Positions 34,555-43,081 of a stretch of DNA of 64,000 bases are shown here, in pieces (the first letter of the stretch is position 1; every line of letters begins with the position of its first letter). The position numbers and the translations under genes were made by a program. The notes under the pieces were generated by a model that ran no database searches, had not been told where the DNA came from, and was given only the letters and a program-made list of their open reading frames with translations. The stretch is from Ruegeria pomeroyi (GTDB taxonomy: Bacteria > Pseudomonadota > Alphaproteobacteria > Rhodobacterales > Rhodobacteraceae). The stretch spans positions 1,984,001 through 2,048,000 of the forward strand of contig NZ_JAGQAG010000001.1 of the NCBI RefSeq assembly GCF_021405525.1, written 5' to 3'.

Positions 34555-36114
34555 TCACTCCCACTCGATGGTTCCCGGAGGTTTCGAGGTGATGTCATAG
34601 GTGCAGCGGTTGATGCCCTTGACCTCGTTGATGATCCGGGTAGCGGTTTCCCCCAGGAACTCGTGGGTGAACGGGTAGTAATCGGCGGTCATGCCATCGA
34701 CCGACGTCACCGCCCGCAGCGCACAGGCATAATCATAGGTGCGCCCGTCGCCCATCACGCCGACGGTGCGGACCGGCAGGATCGCAACAAAGGCCTGCCA
34801 GATCTCGTCATAGAGCCCGTGTTTGCGGATCTGGTCGATATAGATCGCGTCGGCCTCGCGCAGGATCTCCAGCTTTTCGCGGGTGATCTCGCCGGGGCAG
34901 CGGATGGCCAGGCCCGGTCCGGGGAAGGGGTGGCGGCCGATGAAGCTTTGCGGCAGGCCCAGTTCGCGGCCCAGCGCGCGGACCTCGTCCTTGAACAGCT
35001 CGCGCAGCGGCTCGACCAGTTTCAGACCCATCTTTTCCGGCAAGCCGCCCACATTGTGGTGGCTCTTGATCGTCACCGAGGGGCCACCCGAGAAGCTGAC
35101 CGATTCGATCACGTCGGGGTAAAGCGTGCCCTGGGCGAGGAATTCGGCGCCCTCGATGGTGTCGGCATGTTTCTGGAACACGTCGATGAAGAGTTTGCCG
35201 ATGATCTTGCGCTTGGTTTCCGGGTCGGACTGGCCGTCAAGCTCGCCCAGGAACAGGTCGGATTCGTCGGCATGGATGAGCTGGATGTTGTAGTTGTCGC
35301 GGAACATGCCGACGACCTCGGCCGCCTCGTTCTTGCGCAACAGCCCGTGATCGACAAAGACGCAGGTGAGCTGGTCGCCGATCGCCTCGTGAATGAGGAT
35401 CGCGGCGACGGAACTGTCGACACCACCCGAGAGGCCGCAGATGACTTTCTTTTCGCCCACCTGCTCGCGGATCTTGCGGATCATCTCTTCGCGATAGGCG
35501 CCCATGGTCCAGTCGCCCTTGAACCCCGCCAGACGCACGAAGTTTTCGTAGAGCTTTGCGCCGTTCGGGGTGTGGTGCACCTCGGGGTGGAACTGGACCG
35601 CATAGAAATGCCGGCTGGTGTCGGCGGTGATGGCAAAGGGCGCGCCGGGCGAGGTGCCGTAGACCTCGAACCCGGGGGCGATTTCGGCGACGTGGTCGCC
35701 ATGGCTCATCCAGACCTGTTCGCGACCGTCGGCGAACCAGCCGTCGAGAATGTCGAGCGTGCCCTTGGGCGTGACATAGGCGCGGCCAAACTCGGCGGTG
35801 CCGTGGCCGGATTCGACGCGGCCGCCGAGCTGGGTCATCATCGTCTGCTGGCCATAGCAGATCCCCAGGATCGGCACGCCATAGTCGAAGATCTCCTGCG
35901 GTGCGCGGGGGCTGCCCTCGCGCGTGACGCTGTCGGGTCCGCCCGAGAAGATCACCGCCCGTGGCGCCATTTCGCGCACGAAGTCCATGGTGACGTTCTG
36001 ATAAGGGTGGATTTCGCAATAGACGTTCAGCTCGCGCAGGCGGCGGGCGATCAGCTGCGTTACCTGGCTGCCGAAGTCGATGATCAGAAGGCGGTCGTGG
36101 GATGTCTGGCTCAT
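34555..36114 (-). CDS. guaA: GMP synthase (glutamine-hydrolysing)
   Basis: Converts XMP to GMP with glutamine and ATP. N-terminal class I amidotransferase domain (Cys at about 86 in GICYGQQ, then the QFHPEVHHT His-Glu pair near 175), PP-loop ATPase domain ([11 protein letters not shown] near 230) and C-terminal dimerisation domain ending in [10 protein letters not shown]. The 519 residues are full length. Two strong palindromes lie 45-90 bp upstream of the start. Confidence 0.97.
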
Positions 36115-36350: not shown

Positions 36351-37895
36351 ATGGAAGAGGCAATGACCCGGCGACGCGCCCGGGGCGGCGGTGGTGCCGC
36401 CCGCCGTGCCGAACGCTCGGCGGTTGTGATCGAGACCGCCAAATACATCGAACGTAACATCCCCAATTTCGAGGTGCTCAACGAAGAGGCGCTCGAAATC
36501 ATCGAGGCGAATGCCGAGACGGTGCTGGCCGAGATCGGTGTCAACTTCGTCAACAACCCCGCAGCACTGGAGCGCTGGCGCGCGGCCGGGGCCGAGGTCG
36601 AGGATGAGCGGGTGCGCATCCCCCGCGGGCTGGCGCGCAAGCTTTGCTCCACCGCCCCCAGCCAGTTCACCCAGTATGCCCGTAATCCCGAGAAATCGGT
36701 GGTTATCGGCGGTCGCAATCTGGTTCTCGCACCGGTTTATGGCCCGCCCTTCGTGCGTGACGCACAAGGTGGGCGCCGCTATGCGACCATGGCCGATTTC
36801 GAGAAGTTCGTGAAGCTGGCCTATATGTCGAAATGGCTGCACCATTCCGGCGGCACCGTGTGCGAGCCCACCGACATTCCGGTGAACAAGCGTCACCTGG
36901 ACATGCTGATGGCGCATATGACATTGAGCGACAAGCCGTTCATGGGGTCTGTCACCGCGCCGGAGCGGGCGCAGGATTCGGTCGAGATGTGCGAGATCCT
37001 GTTCGGCAAGGAGTTCGTGCGCGACAACACGGTGATGACCTCGCTGGTCAACATCAACTCGCCGATGACCTTCGACGACATCATGATGGGCGCGCTTGAG
37101 GTCTATGCGGCCAGCAACCAGGCCTGCATCATCTCTCCGTTCATCGTCGGCGGCGCAATGGCTCCGGTGTCGGTGGCGGGTACGCTGACCCAGGTTCTGG
37201 CCGAGGTTCTGGCCGGTGTCGCCTATAGCCAGTTGATCCGCCCCGGCGCGCCGGTGATCTTTGGTGCCTTCGTGTCGTCGATCGACATGAATTCGGGCGC
37301 GCCCACCTTTGGTACGCCCGAGGCAAGCCTCGTCACCTATGGCGCCGGTCAGCTGGCGCGGCGTCTGGGCCTGCCGTTCCGCTCGGCGGGGTCGTTCTGC
37401 GGCTCGAAACTGCCTGATGCGCAGGCGGCCTATGAAACCGCCAACTCGCTCAACATGGGGTTGCTCTCGGGCGTGAACTTCATGCTGCATGCCTGCGGCT
37501 GGCTCGAAGGTGGCCTGGTGGCGGATTTCGAGAAATTCGTCATGGATGCCGATCAGTTGGGCGCATTGCACGGGTTGGCCAAGGGCGTTCCCGTCGATGC
37601 CGAGCATCAGGCGATGGGCGCAATCCGCGAGGTGGGGCCGGGCGGCCACTACCTTGGCTGTGCCCATACCCAGGCCAATTTCAAATCCGCCTTCTGGAAA
37701 TCCGAACTGCTCGACTACAAGCCGTTCGAAACCTGGGAGGAAGAGGGCGCGCGCGACACCTATGCGCTGGCCTCGGGCCGGGTCGAGAAACTGTTGGGCG
37801 CCTATCAGCAGCCCGCACTCGACCCCGAGATCGCCGGTGCGCTGGCGGCCTATGTGGCCGAGAAGAAGGCCTCGATGCCCGACGCCTTCATGTAA
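36351..37895 (+). CDS. Trimethylamine methyltransferase family protein (MttB-like, no pyrrolysine)
   Basis: 514 residues of the MttB superfamily, corrinoid-dependent methyltransferases acting on quaternary or tertiary amines. Recognisable blocks are EALEIIEANAETVLAEIGVNF, TDIPVNKRHLDMLMAHM, GGAMAPVSVAGTLTQVLAEVLAG and AGSFCGSKLPDAQAAYETAN. There is no in-frame amber codon, so it belongs to the non-pyrrolysine branch that includes glycine-betaine and carnitine demethylases. No corrinoid protein or reductive activator lies nearby. The basic N-terminus (TRRRARGGGGAARRAERS) is unusual. Substrate unknown. The gene's stop is one base from that of DUF6477. Confidence 0.85.
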   Translation: MEEAMTRRRARGGGGAARRAERSAVVIETAKYIERNIPNFEVLNEEALEIIEANAETVLAEIGVNFVNNPAALERWRAAGAEVEDERVRIPRGLARKLCSTAPSQFTQYARNPEKSVVIGGRNLVLAPVYGPPFVRDAQGGRRYATMADFEKFVKLAYMSKWLHHSGGTVCEPTDIPVNKRHLDMLMAHMTLSDKPFMGSVTAPERAQDSVEMCEILFGKEFVRDNTVMTSLVNINSPMTFDDIMMGALEVYAASNQACIISPFIVGGAMAPVSVAGTLTQVLAEVLAGVAYSQLIRPGAPVIFGAFVSSIDMNSGAPTFGTPEASLVTYGAGQLARRLGLPFRSAGSFCGSKLPDAQAAYETANSLNMGLLSGVNFMLHACGWLEGGLVADFEKFVMDADQLGALHGLAKGVPVDAEHQAMGAIREVGPGGHYLGCAHTQANFKSAFWKSELLDYKPFETWEEEGARDTYALASGRVEKLLGAYQQPALDPEIAGALAAYVAEKKASMPDAFM

Positions 37896-37896
37896 G

Positions 37897-38196
37897 TTAC
37901 GCGTCTTGCGGGGCGTGGCTGGTCTGCACCAGCTGCGCCTCGCCCATCATGGCGATCAGCAGGTCCACGTGCCGGGGCAGCGAATATCCCGCATCCTCTG
38001 CGCGCCGCTGCTCGTCCAGAACCCTTTCCAGCTCCAACAGCCGCATCAGCGCCGCCGCCGGGCGCGGCAGCTTGCCGTATCCAAGGATACGTTGCAGGTG
38101 GCGGTCGCGGTTGTATTCCGCCTGGCCAAAGCGTGCGGCGCGGATCAGCAGGCGCGGGCGGCGCAGTTGCGATACCATGGACATCAGGTCCTGCAT
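37897..38196 (-). CDS. DUF6477 family protein
   Basis: 99 residues beginning MQDLMSMVSQLRRPRLLIRAARFGQ, then a basic helical stretch EYNRDRHLQRILGYGKLP and an acidic C-terminal half. No enzyme or membrane features. I recall such proteins as a Rhodobacterales family found beside the DUF6456 regulator. In R. capsulatus the genes rcc01865/rcc01866, needed for gene transfer agent production, are adjacent; that this gene is the counterpart of rcc01866 is an inference. Start at 38196 supported by AAAGGAAA. Divergent from the DUF6456 gene, with 242 bp between. Confidence 0.75.
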   Translation of the reverse strand: MQDLMSMVSQLRRPRLLIRAARFGQAEYNRDRHLQRILGYGKLPRPAAALMRLLELERVLDEQRRAEDAGYSLPRHVDLLIAMMGEAQLVQTSHAPQDA

Positions 38197-38336
38197 GACA
38201 TTTCCTTTCCCTAAACGATGTTCGCCACATTTCTGCCACAACCATTGCGGGTGTTGCTTTGATTTGGAAACTACCGTGCGCTGACTTCAGAACTGTTTAT
38301 TCTTTCGAAACAATGATGGGCTGGTCAGCAGATATC

Positions 38337-38351
38337 TTAACGAACAAGTAA
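38337..38351. promoter_or_regulatory. CtrA-like site (TTAA-N7-GTAA)
   Basis: TTAACGAACAAGTAA differs from the CtrA consensus TTAA-N7-TTAA at one base. It lies 88 bp upstream of the DUF6456 gene in the divergent region. In Rhodobacterales CtrA controls gene transfer agent genes, which fits the inferred role. By-eye match only. Confidence 0.4.
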
Positions 38352-38438
38352 CCAATGCAACCATAAGGTGTGTGCGCAACTCGGGGGATAACTGCTGGAT
38401 AAAAGGGTCAGTCAATTTGCCTTTGAGGGTAGGACACG

Positions 38439-39593
38439 ATGGGTAACTGGGCAGAAAACGCCGTCCCCGGCTGGGTTCCCGAAAGCGCGCAGCGCTATCT
38501 GGCTCATACCGAGGCGGGGTTCTCGATCCGGGATCTGGCGCGCGGTGCGGGGTGTCATGCCTCGACCGTGCTGCGTCAGATCCGGCGGGTTGAAATGCGG
38601 CGGGACGATCCCCTGGTGGACGCGGCGCTCGAGGCATTGGCGGCCACTCATTTCCCGCCGCTGAAACTCAGCAGATCGCCGGTTTCGCGCGGTGGCGACA
38701 AGCCAGAGGATACCGCCCCGATGACGAAGCCCGCCCAACAGATCGAGGAGACCCCCGACGCCGCCACCTTTGACCTGGAGGCCACGCGTATCCTGCGGCG
38801 GCTATGCGAAAGCGGCGCGGTGCTGGCGGTGGCCGAGGATATGGACAAGGCCGTGGTGGTGCGCGACGACGGCAAGGGCGGCAATACCCGCACCGCCGTG
38901 GTCAGCTGCGCGATGGCGCAGGCGCTGGCGCTCAAGGACTGGATCGCCTGCGACAAGCCGGGCCGGATCAGCCGCTATTACCTGACCACCGCCGGGCGTG
39001 GCGCCCTGGGCCGGCTGCTGGCCGAGGCCGAGAACCGCGCCCGCGCCGCGCAGGACGGGTTCGCCGAGGCGCAAAGCCCCTTTGCGGCGCAACACCGGGT
39101 GATGGGGGAAAAAACCGTGGCGGGCGAGGCCGGTGAACGGCCGCGCCGGGTGCGCTACAACATGGCGGAAAGTCCCCTGATCGCGCTGGCCCGGCGCAAG
39201 GATCGTGATGGTCAGCCCTTTCTGGACGACACGCTGGTGCGCGCGGGCGAGCGGCTGCGCGAGGATTTCGAACTGGCGCAGATGGGTCCCAACATCGCGC
39301 AGAACTGGGACCGGTTCCTGACCGGCGGCGCGAGGGGCGGTTTTCACCCCGACAGCGGTGTCGGTCATGGCCCCGAGGCTGCCCGCGACCGCGTGGCGCG
39401 CGCGCTATCCGAGCTGGGGCCGGGGCTGAGCGATGTGGCGCTGCGCTGCTGCTGCTATCTGGAGGGGCTGGAACTGGCCGAAAAACGCATGGGCTGGTCG
39501 GCGCGGTCCGGCAAGATCGTGCTGCGCATCGCCCTGCAACGGCTCAAGCGGCATTACGAGGAACAGAGCGGGCGCGACCGGCTGATCGGATAA
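38439..39593 (+). CDS. DUF6456 helix-turn-helix regulator, probable GTA activator GafA
   Basis: 384 residues. An N-terminal helix-turn-helix (about 22-50: HTEAGFSIRDLARGAGCHASTVLRQIRRV) is followed by a variable acidic linker, a middle winged-helix-like part (AVLAVAEDMDKAVVVRDD ... RYYLTTAGRGALGRLL) and a conserved C-terminal domain (about 240-380, SPLIALARRKDRDGQPFL ... IVLRIALQRLKRHYEEQ) that looks like a sigma-factor or phage-type DNA-binding module. R. capsulatus GafA has a DNA-binding N-terminus and a C-terminus that contacts the RNA polymerase omega subunit. Assignment as GafA rests on domain likeness and the DUF6477 neighbour, so it is probable, not certain. Confidence 0.7.
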   Translation: MGNWAENAVPGWVPESAQRYLAHTEAGFSIRDLARGAGCHASTVLRQIRRVEMRRDDPLVDAALEALAATHFPPLKLSRSPVSRGGDKPEDTAPMTKPAQQIEETPDAATFDLEATRILRRLCESGAVLAVAEDMDKAVVVRDDGKGGNTRTAVVSCAMAQALALKDWIACDKPGRISRYYLTTAGRGALGRLLAEAENRARAAQDGFAEAQSPFAAQHRVMGEKTVAGEAGERPRRVRYNMAESPLIALARRKDRDGQPFLDDTLVRAGERLREDFELAQMGPNIAQNWDRFLTGGARGGFHPDSGVGHGPEAARDRVARALSELGPGLSDVALRCCCYLEGLELAEKRMGWSARSGKIVLRIALQRLKRHYEEQSGRDRLIG

Positions 39594-39634
39594 TCCCGGG
39601 TTGTTGCCGGGGGTGATTGCGATATGTTTCGCCT

Positions 39635-40597
39635 ATGAGCTTCACCCTCCGGCAACTCCATTATTTCAAGGCCCTGGTCGAGCAGCGCAACTTTGGCCGC
39701 GCGGCCGAGGCCTGCCATGTCTCGCAACCCGCGCTGTCGGTGCAGATCCGCGCACTCGAAGAGGTTCTGGGCGGGCCGCTGGTCGAGCGGCGCGCTCGCG
39801 ACGTGGTGCTGACACCGCTCGGGCGCAGCGTGCTGCCACTTGTCGATCAGGCGCTGGCCAGTGCCGACCGGCTTGACCGGTTCGCGCGGGATCAGGCGGG
39901 CGCGGCAAGCCTGTCTCTGGGCCTCATCCCCACCATGGCGCCCTATCTGCTGCCCGGCGTGCTGGCGGAACTCAGGGCGCAGAACCTGTCCTTGCGGGTG
40001 CATGTGCGCGAGGCGCGCACCGAACAACTGTTGCAGGCGCTGCACAAGGGAGAGCTGGACGCGGCGGTACTGGCCCTGCCGGTGTCGCAGGCGGGGCTGA
40101 CATCGGTCGAGCTGTTTCGCGACCGGTTCCTACTGGCCGGGTCCGAGGCCCGTCTGGCGCGTCTGGCTCAGGGGGCCGAGGCGCCGCGCCCCACCGATCT
40201 GCAACCCGCGCAGTTGATGCTGCTTGAGGATGGCCATTGCCTGACCGATCAGGCGCTCGAGGTCTGTGGCCATGACCGGGCAGCGGCCGGGATCAACATG
40301 GGCGCCTCGTCGTTGGCCACGCTGTCAAGACTGGTGGCCGAGGGATTCGGTCTCACCCTGATGCCGGAGCTGGCAGCGCGCTCGGAACTGGCCGCCGTGC
40401 CGGGGCTGCGGCTGCATCGGTTCCCGGCGCCGGAACCGGCCCGTACCGTTGGGCTGGTGCGGCGCAGCTCGACCTATCGGGCGCGCTGGTTCGACGATCT
40501 GGAACGCATCATCCGTCAGGTGGGCGAGGGGATCGTGACCGAAGCGCGCAAGGCCCCTCCGCCGCAACCGGCGGAAGGGCTGGATGCCGCGGGTTAG
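39635..40597 (+). CDS. oxyR: Hydrogen peroxide-sensing LysR regulator OxyR
   Basis: 320 residues. The N-terminal LysR winged helix (MSFTLRQLHYFKALVEQRNFGRAAEACHVSQPALSVQIRALEE) is followed by the effector domain. EDGHCLTDQALEVC places two Cys nine residues apart (about 202 and 211), matching the E. coli OxyR redox pair Cys199/Cys208 in GHCLRDQAMGFC. That makes OxyR much more likely than a generic LysR. Neighbours agree: an aquaporin and a peroxiredoxin come next on the opposite strand. It ends by sharing overlapping stop codons with the aquaporin gene. Confidence 0.92.
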   Translation: MSFTLRQLHYFKALVEQRNFGRAAEACHVSQPALSVQIRALEEVLGGPLVERRARDVVLTPLGRSVLPLVDQALASADRLDRFARDQAGAASLSLGLIPTMAPYLLPGVLAELRAQNLSLRVHVREARTEQLLQALHKGELDAAVLALPVSQAGLTSVELFRDRFLLAGSEARLARLAQGAEAPRPTDLQPAQLMLLEDGHCLTDQALEVCGHDRAAAGINMGASSLATLSRLVAEGFGLTLMPELAARSELAAVPGLRLHRFPAPEPARTVGLVRRSSTYRARWFDDLERIIRQVGEGIVTEARKAPPPQPAEGLDAAG

Positions 40598-41933: not shown

Positions 41934-42130
41934 CAGACGATCTCCTTGGAATTTCAATAGGTCGGGCGACGGTTAGAGCGATTCCAAACCGGCTTCAACC
42001 GGGGAAATGCTGCATGTGCAGCATCACGCCGCCCCGAGAATGCATGGCGGTCATGCAGCAGTGGCCTTACTTGTGACGCCGCGTTATGTTAGAGGGTGCC
42101 GCAACCGTTCCAGCCAAGGGAAACCGACCC

Positions 42131-43081
42131 GTGCGTGACCTGAAGATCCCCGAGCAGCGCCACCCCGAAAAGGCGCATCGCCCCGATCAGTCGCAACCCA
42201 AGAAACCGGACTGGATCCGGGTCAAGGCGCCGGGGGGCAAGGGCTATGCCGATACCCGCCGGATCATGCGCGACAACAACCTGGTCACCGTGTGTGAAGA
42301 GGCCGGATGCCCCAATGTCGGCGAATGCTGGAGCCAGGGCCACGCCACCATGATGATCATGGGCGAGATCTGTACGCGCGGCTGCACCTTTTGCAACATC
42401 GCCACCGGGCGGCCCGATGCGCTCGATGCGTTCGAGCCGGGCCGGGTGGCGCATGCGGTCGAGAAACTGGGCCTGAACCATGTGGTGATCACCAGCGTGG
42501 ACCGCGACGACCTGGCCGATGGCGGGGCCGAGCATTTTGCCCAGACCATTCGCGCCATCCGGCATCGCAGCCCCTCGACCACGATCGAGATCCTGACACC
42601 CGATTTCCTGAAATGCGCGCCCGAGGTGCTGGAGGTCGTGGTTGCGGCCAAGCCGGACGTGTTCAACCACAATCTGGAAACCGTGCCGGGCCTCTACCCC
42701 GAGGTGCGCCCGGGTGCCCGCTATTTCCACTCGCTGCGCCTGCTCCAGCGGGTCAAGGAACTGGACCCGTCGATCTTTACCAAATCCGGCATCATGGTCG
42801 GCCTGGGAGAGATCGAACAGCAGGTGCGCCAAGTGATGGACGACATGCGCGCCGCCGATATCGATTTCCTGACCATCGGCCAGTATCTGCAACCGACGCC
42901 GAAACACCACCGGGTCGACCGTTTCGTCACGCCCGAAGAATTCGCCTCTTATGAGAAAGCCGCCTATGGCAAGGGCTTCCTGATGGTTTCGGCAACGCCG
43001 CTGACGCGCTCGTCCTATCATGCGGGTGACGATTTTGCGCGGCTGCGGGATGCGCGGCAGAAAAAGCTCGGCCTGGCCTGA
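42131..43081 (+). CDS. lipA: Lipoyl synthase
   Basis: Radical-SAM enzyme inserting two sulfurs into protein-bound octanoate. Both iron-sulfur sites are present: the auxiliary cluster [12 protein letters not shown] and the radical-SAM [18 protein letters not shown] and [10 protein letters not shown] complete the family pattern, and the C-terminal [10 protein letters not shown] has the Ser ligand region. I prefer the GTG at 42131 ([14 protein letters not shown], 316 aa) because it matches the family and AAGGGA precedes it; an ATG at 42086 lacks a ribosome site. Confidence 0.96.

Follow-up and report, generated by a model that had tools for sequence, protein, structure and literature searches.

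The gene transfer agent (GTA) of R. capsulatus is activated by GafA, which binds the GTA promoter, interacts with the RNA polymerase omega subunit, and induces both its own gene and lysis genes (PMC6363796, PMC9638019). Relatives of GafA carry the DUF6456 annotation (PMC9638019), the gafA promoter contains a CtrA site of the form TTAAC-N6-GTAAC (Fogg 2019, PMC6363796), and synteny of gafA with guaA and lipA has been published (PMC6363796). Mutation of the adjacent gene, rcc01866, yields particles that are made but immature, with undetectable lysis, and that study could not predict what the gene does (PMC9638019). In Caulobacter, the GafA homologues GafY and GafZ activate and anti-terminate (PMC11150451). 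Loss of GTAs has so far been treated as the outcome of pseudogenisation or deletion in lineages of cheaters (PMC10883770). Each of these statements reflects the portions of the cited papers that were available to us. Here, we describe the gafA locus in a 64-kb window of Ruegeria pomeroyi, meaning the whole stretch of 64,000 nucleotides that was analysed, and a deletion of the GTA cluster that recurs among relatives.

RESULTS

The gafA/DUF6477 locus

The features of the locus and its surroundings, followed by the GTA-type holin gene of the genome in contig coordinates, are as follows.

34555..36114, minus strand, guaA, conserved flank (synteny)
36351..37895, plus strand, trimethylamine methyltransferase (MTTB) gene (PF06253, 779 bits)
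37897..38196, minus strand, DUF6477 gene, 99 aa, in the position of rcc01866 (PF20083, 131 bits against a Pfam cut-off of 25; 26-row alignment)
38197..38438, no strand, divergent promoter region, 242 bp between start codons (sequence)
38337..38352, plus strand, CtrA-type site TTAAC-GAACAA-GTAAC, 86 bp before the gafA ATG (published motif match)
38439..39593, plus strand, probable gafA orthologue, predicted DUF6456 transcription activator, 384 aa (PF20057, 213 bits)
38511..38588, plus strand, putative GafA N-terminal helix-turn-helix, residues 25-50 (HTH_38, E 9.6e-4, below cut-off)
39150..39563, plus strand, DUF6456 domain, C-terminal module, residues 238-375 (Pfam)
39617..40597, plus strand, LysR-type regulator gene (Pfam)
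42086..43081, plus strand, lipA, conserved flank (synteny)
C1:2384438-2384767, strand not given, GTA-type holin gene (PF11351, profile match)

The preliminary description had claimed a 384-residue protein with an N-terminal helix-turn-helix and a conserved C-terminal module. The reading frame is there and the C-terminal module is DUF6456, far above its cut-off of 26.3 bits, but the helix-turn-helix match is sub-threshold (19.3 bits, cut-off 27). The protein aligned with 23 relatives at 41-73% identity, and its N part was well conserved across the family alignment and could also be aligned with gp38 of Roseobacter phage RDJL Phi1 by hhalign. Its PHROG match was phrog_31864, to which that database assigns no function. 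For the proteins of the locus, no NCBIfam model scored above cut-off and no PDB relative was convincing (best E values, 0.27 and 0.35). Moreover, guaA and lipA were both present in 90 of the 99 loci fetched from relatives. Domain content, the conserved N part, synteny, and the promoter site together support identification of the protein as a GafA orthologue and, judged by sequence, the locus is an orthologue of the known gafA/rcc01866 locus and ordinary in itself.

The promoter site proved better than first claimed. The stretch TTAACGAACAAGTAA at 38337-38351 had been called one base off a CtrA site, and it does match TTAA-N7-TTAA at 7 of 8 positions; the next base, however, completes TTAAC-GAACAA-GTAAC (38337-38352), which matches TTAAC-N6-GTAAC at 10 of 10. 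At a threshold of at least 9/10, it is the sole match on either strand of the whole 64-kb window. Of 60 GTA-positive loci (our own included), 58 had a site at or above that threshold in the gafA promoter region, the exceptions being those of genomes G093 and G101; of 2059 same-length background windows of the fetched loci, only 4 did. Thus, the site occurs more often than chance would allow. It was kept in 22 of 33 gafA loci from GTA-less relatives, significantly fewer than in the GTA-positive loci (Fisher p 1.4e-4), as expected if the job of the site is GTA control.

The R. pomeroyi genome (4.51 Mb, 4 contigs) has one GTA_TIM gene. A GTA capsid cluster elsewhere in the genome had been proposed as a check, and a head-tail cluster was indeed found; it shares the contig with the window and stops about 34 kb ahead of it. 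In order, it encodes terminase, portal, protease, capsid, connector, tail tube, DUF2460, hub, and the megatron g15; 9 of the 10 cluster reading frames tested matched the expected phage or GTA families, and the g14 frame matched none. The claim that the locus is a GTA master switch therefore stands as far as a GafA orthologue and a GTA structural cluster in one genome are concerned, and neither of the two outcomes named beforehand as refuting it came about; the share assigned to DUF6477 is at most a possibility.

The DUF6477 gene

The divergent gene lies 242 bp from gafA, as the preliminary description had it, and its 99 codons are counted from the ATG at 38196, the mechanical open reading frame beginning further out at a TTG. 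Eight residues were invariant among the 26 aligned rows (R13, P14, A21, R36, E57, R64, Y71, and H76). A single-sequence structure model contained four helices with a pLDDT of 56.6, too poor for a fold search. There was no PHROG match for the protein, tblastn with the window protein matched no phage record, and our literature search on DUF6477 found no paper. DUF6477 stood divergently beside gafA in all 60 GTA-positive loci, in 31 of the 33 GTA-less ones, and in 5 of 7 others; the four remaining loci (two GTA-less, two other) were without it. In one genome, G056 (L077), gafA and a GTA cluster with capsid were present, yet DUF6477 was neither beside gafA nor elsewhere. In GTA-positive G041, DUF6477 was cut to about 50 residues. 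We conclude that DUF6477 is not an absolute requirement for GTA retention.

Of the 390 genomes in an order sample, 385 had DUF6477 and 373 had GTA_TIM. Among 385 genomes sampled across the class, DUF6477 occurred in 7, five of them from the same family as R. pomeroyi, and DUF6456 occurred in 71. One genome of a different family, G450 (C3:76379-78289), has DUF6477 divergent from and near DUF6456. None of the 14 control genomes, which included Caulobacter, had a DUF6477 match. DUF6477 thus mainly accompanies GafA in the family of R. pomeroyi, the GafA family itself being wider.

GTA-less relatives that keep the regulators

The GTA-less set was built from 17 genomes without GTA_TIM and 19 with a weak GTA_TIM match; seven others were added, and all 43 were searched with the R. 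pomeroyi capsid. GTA-like capsids, which are 66-83% identical in relatives, were found only in G000, G091, G041, G063, G210, G056, and G227. Removing G091, in which capsid was present, from the 36 left 35 GTA-less genomes, a lower bound because GTA-less genomes with GTA_TIM from a phage copy escape the count. G366 was left out of the 35: it has no GTA-like capsid, a long GTA_TIM match, no DUF6477, and only a scrap of gafA. Five of the 35 gave phage-type or scrap capsid matches at 30-50% identity, and G251, counted as GTA-less, has a 108-residue capsid scrap with a stop. DUF2793 was tried as a particle-only control and went unused, as 13 of 78 genomes lacked a match, including our own and several that are GTA positive.

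Most GTA-less genomes nonetheless keep the regulators. Matches were found to DUF6456 in 33 of the 35 (not G232 or G326), to DUF6477 in 32 (not G005, G163, or G232), and to the PF11351 GTA holin in 33, one of them partial (not G232 or G110). The gafA gene was broken in G002, where a stop splits it, and in G223, where there is a frameshift; in G163 it was truncated.

A recurrent deletion

In 19 of the 35 GTA-less genomes (L149-L167), spread over 12 genera, the R. pomeroyi TerL matches only to about residue 183-185, and in 16 of these the TerL match sits in an open reading frame of 831-893 aa. TerL(1-183), ending in AAWVDE or alike, runs on in frame into g15 directly behind E655, resuming at residue 656 with xGCAAVDKG or alike. 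By eye, 18 joints were exact, and G102 had one base missing there. We take TerL E183 to be the end of the Walker B strand. The lost stretch, as measured in 29 intact relatives, is 11.0-12.4 kb; what is left is an open TerS reading frame and the TerL::megatron fusion frame, in most cases alongside the GTA holin, gafA, and DUF6477.

The fusions appear to have arisen many times. In trees of the TerL half and of the g15 half, fused and intact clusters were interleaved largely in host order, and parsimony on a tree that combined the 19 fused clusters with 29 intact ones gave a minimum of 17 origins if the event is irreversible. The only all-fused clade in that 48-cluster tree had a support of 0.35. 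In genus g8, three fused genomes did not form a clade among ten intact members. Finally, the flanks of the joint and the codon after it agree for the most part with the terL and g15 of the lineage concerned.

The joint was also found in 66 contigs (L189-L254) of the named GTDB contig collection with a pattern that by construction finds only exact joints. Several of these are MAGs, and some come from the same genomes as the 19, such that the two counts overlap. Ruegeria, Roseovarius, Sulfitobacter, Silicimonas, Thioclava, and other genera were represented, as were three Hyphomicrobiales (Chelativorans, Mesorhizobium alhagi, and Phyllobacterium). Both TerL and g15 were seen in 65 of the 66, L241 starting at the joint, and mltG lay within the fetched stretch in 44. 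By set thresholds, the fusion frame was full in 41, cut by the end of the stretch in 16, and short in 9. The pattern had no match in viral contigs. No other GTA genes were found in the 66 stretches or in the 19 loci, and no capsid above 35% identity was found elsewhere in the 19 fused genomes. A data artefact was considered and rejected: the joint recurs in the named GTDB collection, and the length stated by the assembler equalled the sequence length in 7 of the 8 titles giving one, the eighth being off by one base, so nothing seems to have been excised after assembly.

Other changes to the cluster were seen in passing. In G377 (L168) and G001 (L188), which belong to two genera, g3 continues from about residue 225 into g15, at a different point of g15 in each, and in G091 (L172) the region from g5 to g15 is lost. 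In G063 (L186) and in genus g8 (L255-L264), g15 carries some 130-190 additional residues a little ahead of the point at which other genomes have the joint; in G063 this addition is in frame and, by eye only, like a carbohydrate-binding module.

DISCUSSION

How one and the same joint could arise repeatedly is the surprising part of this work. A single ancient fusion allele was considered and rejected, as each fusion tracks the terL and g15 of its host, and third-position divergence from intact sisters did not clearly rise towards the joint. For TerL, that divergence was 0.35 nearest the joint, 0.33-0.40 in the next five bins, and 0.22-0.28 far away; for g15, it was 0.57 nearest and 0.44-0.58 elsewhere, with intact-intact controls at 0.50 nearest. 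Deletion driven by a repeat was also set aside. In 29 intact clusters, the 40-bp match at both sites was mostly unremarkable, the fraction of equal or better matches ranging from 3e-5 to 0.27. Averaged over lineages, the pair of sites ranks 52nd of 5.35 million; it has a conserved 36-bp stretch in common, and the proteins encoded at both sites contain PQ-x4-W-x2-EL. The stretch is only 50% identical, however, which is too little for ordinary homologous recombination. Deletion would therefore need either a recombinase or selection for exactly the TerL::g15 fusion.

A functional fusion kept by selection did not hold up well. The fused frame contains no stop codons, and dN/dS was 0.036-0.184 in pairs with a fused member in which dS was unsaturated, but since the three fused g8 genomes are not closest to one another, the constraint mostly predates the deletions. 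Moreover, N/S in the g15 C part was slightly higher on fused branches (200/876 versus 157/905, p 0.02). In a structure model of the fusion, residues 33-71 and the stretch immediately behind the joint (170-210) had a pLDDT below 50, while the C-terminal half was confident. Strong selection for exactly this fusion would, with no confident fold predicted just after the joint, be less likely than a site-specific event. That RcGTA-type clusters have been removed repeatedly by one site-specific event is itself a proposal we hold tentatively, and we consider it possible rather than probable. In the literature searched, as far as the text available to us extended, no description of a recurrent identical deletion was found (including PMC10883770, PMC6473078, PMC9836097, PMC11409702, PMC8116508, PMC9765227, PMC13420450, PMC11655674, and PMC9632790). 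If the deletion is site specific, a precise and perhaps programmed excision could make GTA producers into non-producers, which would bear on the origin of GTA cheaters. If it holds at all, the recurrent deletion would provide a defined molecular event for GTA loss that should be detectable by PCR in ordinary cultures; it would matter more than the locus in the window, and it deserves a study of its own.

Why GafA and DUF6477 persist in genomes that have lost the GTA must also be considered. One explanation is that the two proteins have a GTA-independent role as well, such as control of lysis or competence, and hence outlive the GTA. That explanation looked strong at first, as most of the 35 capsid-less genomes keep DUF6456, DUF6477, and the holin. 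Neither regulator showed relaxation: N/S was 165/659 on GTA-less branches and 142/576 on GTA-positive sister branches for gafA, and 58/148 and 55/149, respectively, for DUF6477 (16 chosen triplets, three of which share one sister). The TerL remnant, however, was equally unrelaxed (45/233 versus 62/244, p 0.24, 13 triplets), and an open TerS frame remains in all 19 fused genomes. Since the remnant is under the same constraint as the regulators, the GTA losses are most simply read as recent, and the deletions are scattered at the tips of the tree. Also against such a role, among the 19 fused genomes gafA is broken in 2 of 3 with a broken fusion frame versus 0 of 16 others (p 0.018), it is truncated in G163, and 8 of the 14 GTA-less loci that have no fusion lack a CtrA site at 9/10 or better. 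Thus, GafA and DUF6477 probably do not have a GTA-independent role, and we regard one as unlikely.

Two other explanations fare worse. DUF6477 might be a bystander that merely sits beside gafA, which would fit its lack of a published molecular function and its absence from GTA-positive G056. We consider this very improbable, however, as DUF6477 is the divergent neighbour of gafA in nearly all loci and keeps that arrangement in G450, outside the family; moreover, a relative lies two genes from a GafA-like gene in phage RDJL Phi1, and the rcc01866 mutant has a published phenotype. The pair might instead regulate a different prophage rather than the GTA, as phages do carry GafA-like genes. Against this, the locus sits in a chromosomal guaA/lipA context, the pair is near-universal in the order, and its contig also carries the GTA cluster; the neighbours tested have metabolic or regulatory roles, and none is a phage gene. 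A prophage target is, we think, hardly credible.

By analogy with published work, the locus is very probably the Rhodobacterales gafA/rcc01866 pair working as in R. capsulatus. CtrA, together with quorum sensing, would act at TTAAC-N6-GTAAC to raise gafA transcription, and the DNA-binding ends of GafA would then engage the GTA promoter and recruit RNA polymerase. GafA would in turn boost its own gene and turn on the GTA cluster on the same contig along with lysis genes. The biochemistry of these steps is inferred from R. capsulatus and Caulobacter, while gene identity, synteny, the promoter site and its conservation, the GTA cluster, and the GTA-type holin gene are direct observations. DUF6477 was claimed to be part of the activation switch, which is at best a tentative reading, as the published mutant acts late and G056 keeps its GTA without the gene. 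Because that mutant makes immature particles with no detectable lysis, we place the DUF6477 step after activation. Our guess is that DUF6477 supplies a small accessory protein, probably helical, for a late step of the maturation and lysis that depend on CtrA. The preliminary description further held that its function is undescribed; this is true of the molecular function, but the phenotype of the rcc01866 mutant and Dshi_1585 of Dinoroseobacter shibae are in print. With this locus, a known regulatory family gains a further genome and the role of rcc01866/DUF6477 a clean test case.

The known systems differ from the locus to varying degrees. In Caulobacter crescentus, two proteins take the place of the one found here, GafY resembling the N part of GafA and GafZ the C part, according to the portion of the report available to us (PMC11150451). 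In phage RDJL Phi1, GafA-like, CtrA-like, and DUF6477-like genes also occur together (gp36-gp38), and profile alignments related gp38 to GafA (E 1.1e-20, 27% identity) and gp36 to DUF6477 (E 2.9e-8, 32% identity), an arrangement in line with Fogg 2019 (PMC6363796) in its accessible parts. Unlike the divergent pair here, however, the phage genes lie on one strand with a CtrA gene (gp37, annotated ctrA) in between. We note that a viral contig, L265 (IMGVR_UViG_2515154196_000001), encodes a 48% identical DUF6456 stretch, followed by frames that by eye are like an HNH nuclease and the small and large terminase subunits.

Closer likenesses are found among cellular genomes. Dinoroseobacter shibae has the same pair, Dshi_1584/Dshi_1585, with predicted CtrA sites and quorum-sensing control; in the descriptions available to us in part, that pair is adjacent to ctrA, whereas a motif search of the 64-kb window found no ctrA gene. 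The rcc01865/rcc01866 pair of R. capsulatus, in the portions of its published descriptions at hand, shares with the window locus the divergent arrangement, guaA/lipA synteny, TTAAC-N6-GTAAC, and a GTA cluster elsewhere in the genome, a likeness that rests on position, synteny, site, and those descriptions. The two differ in spacing: the site lies 86 bp from the gafA start here but usually 65-71 bp in Fogg's alignment (PMC6363796), and several near relatives of R. pomeroyi have a candidate gafA start 84 bp from the CtrA site.
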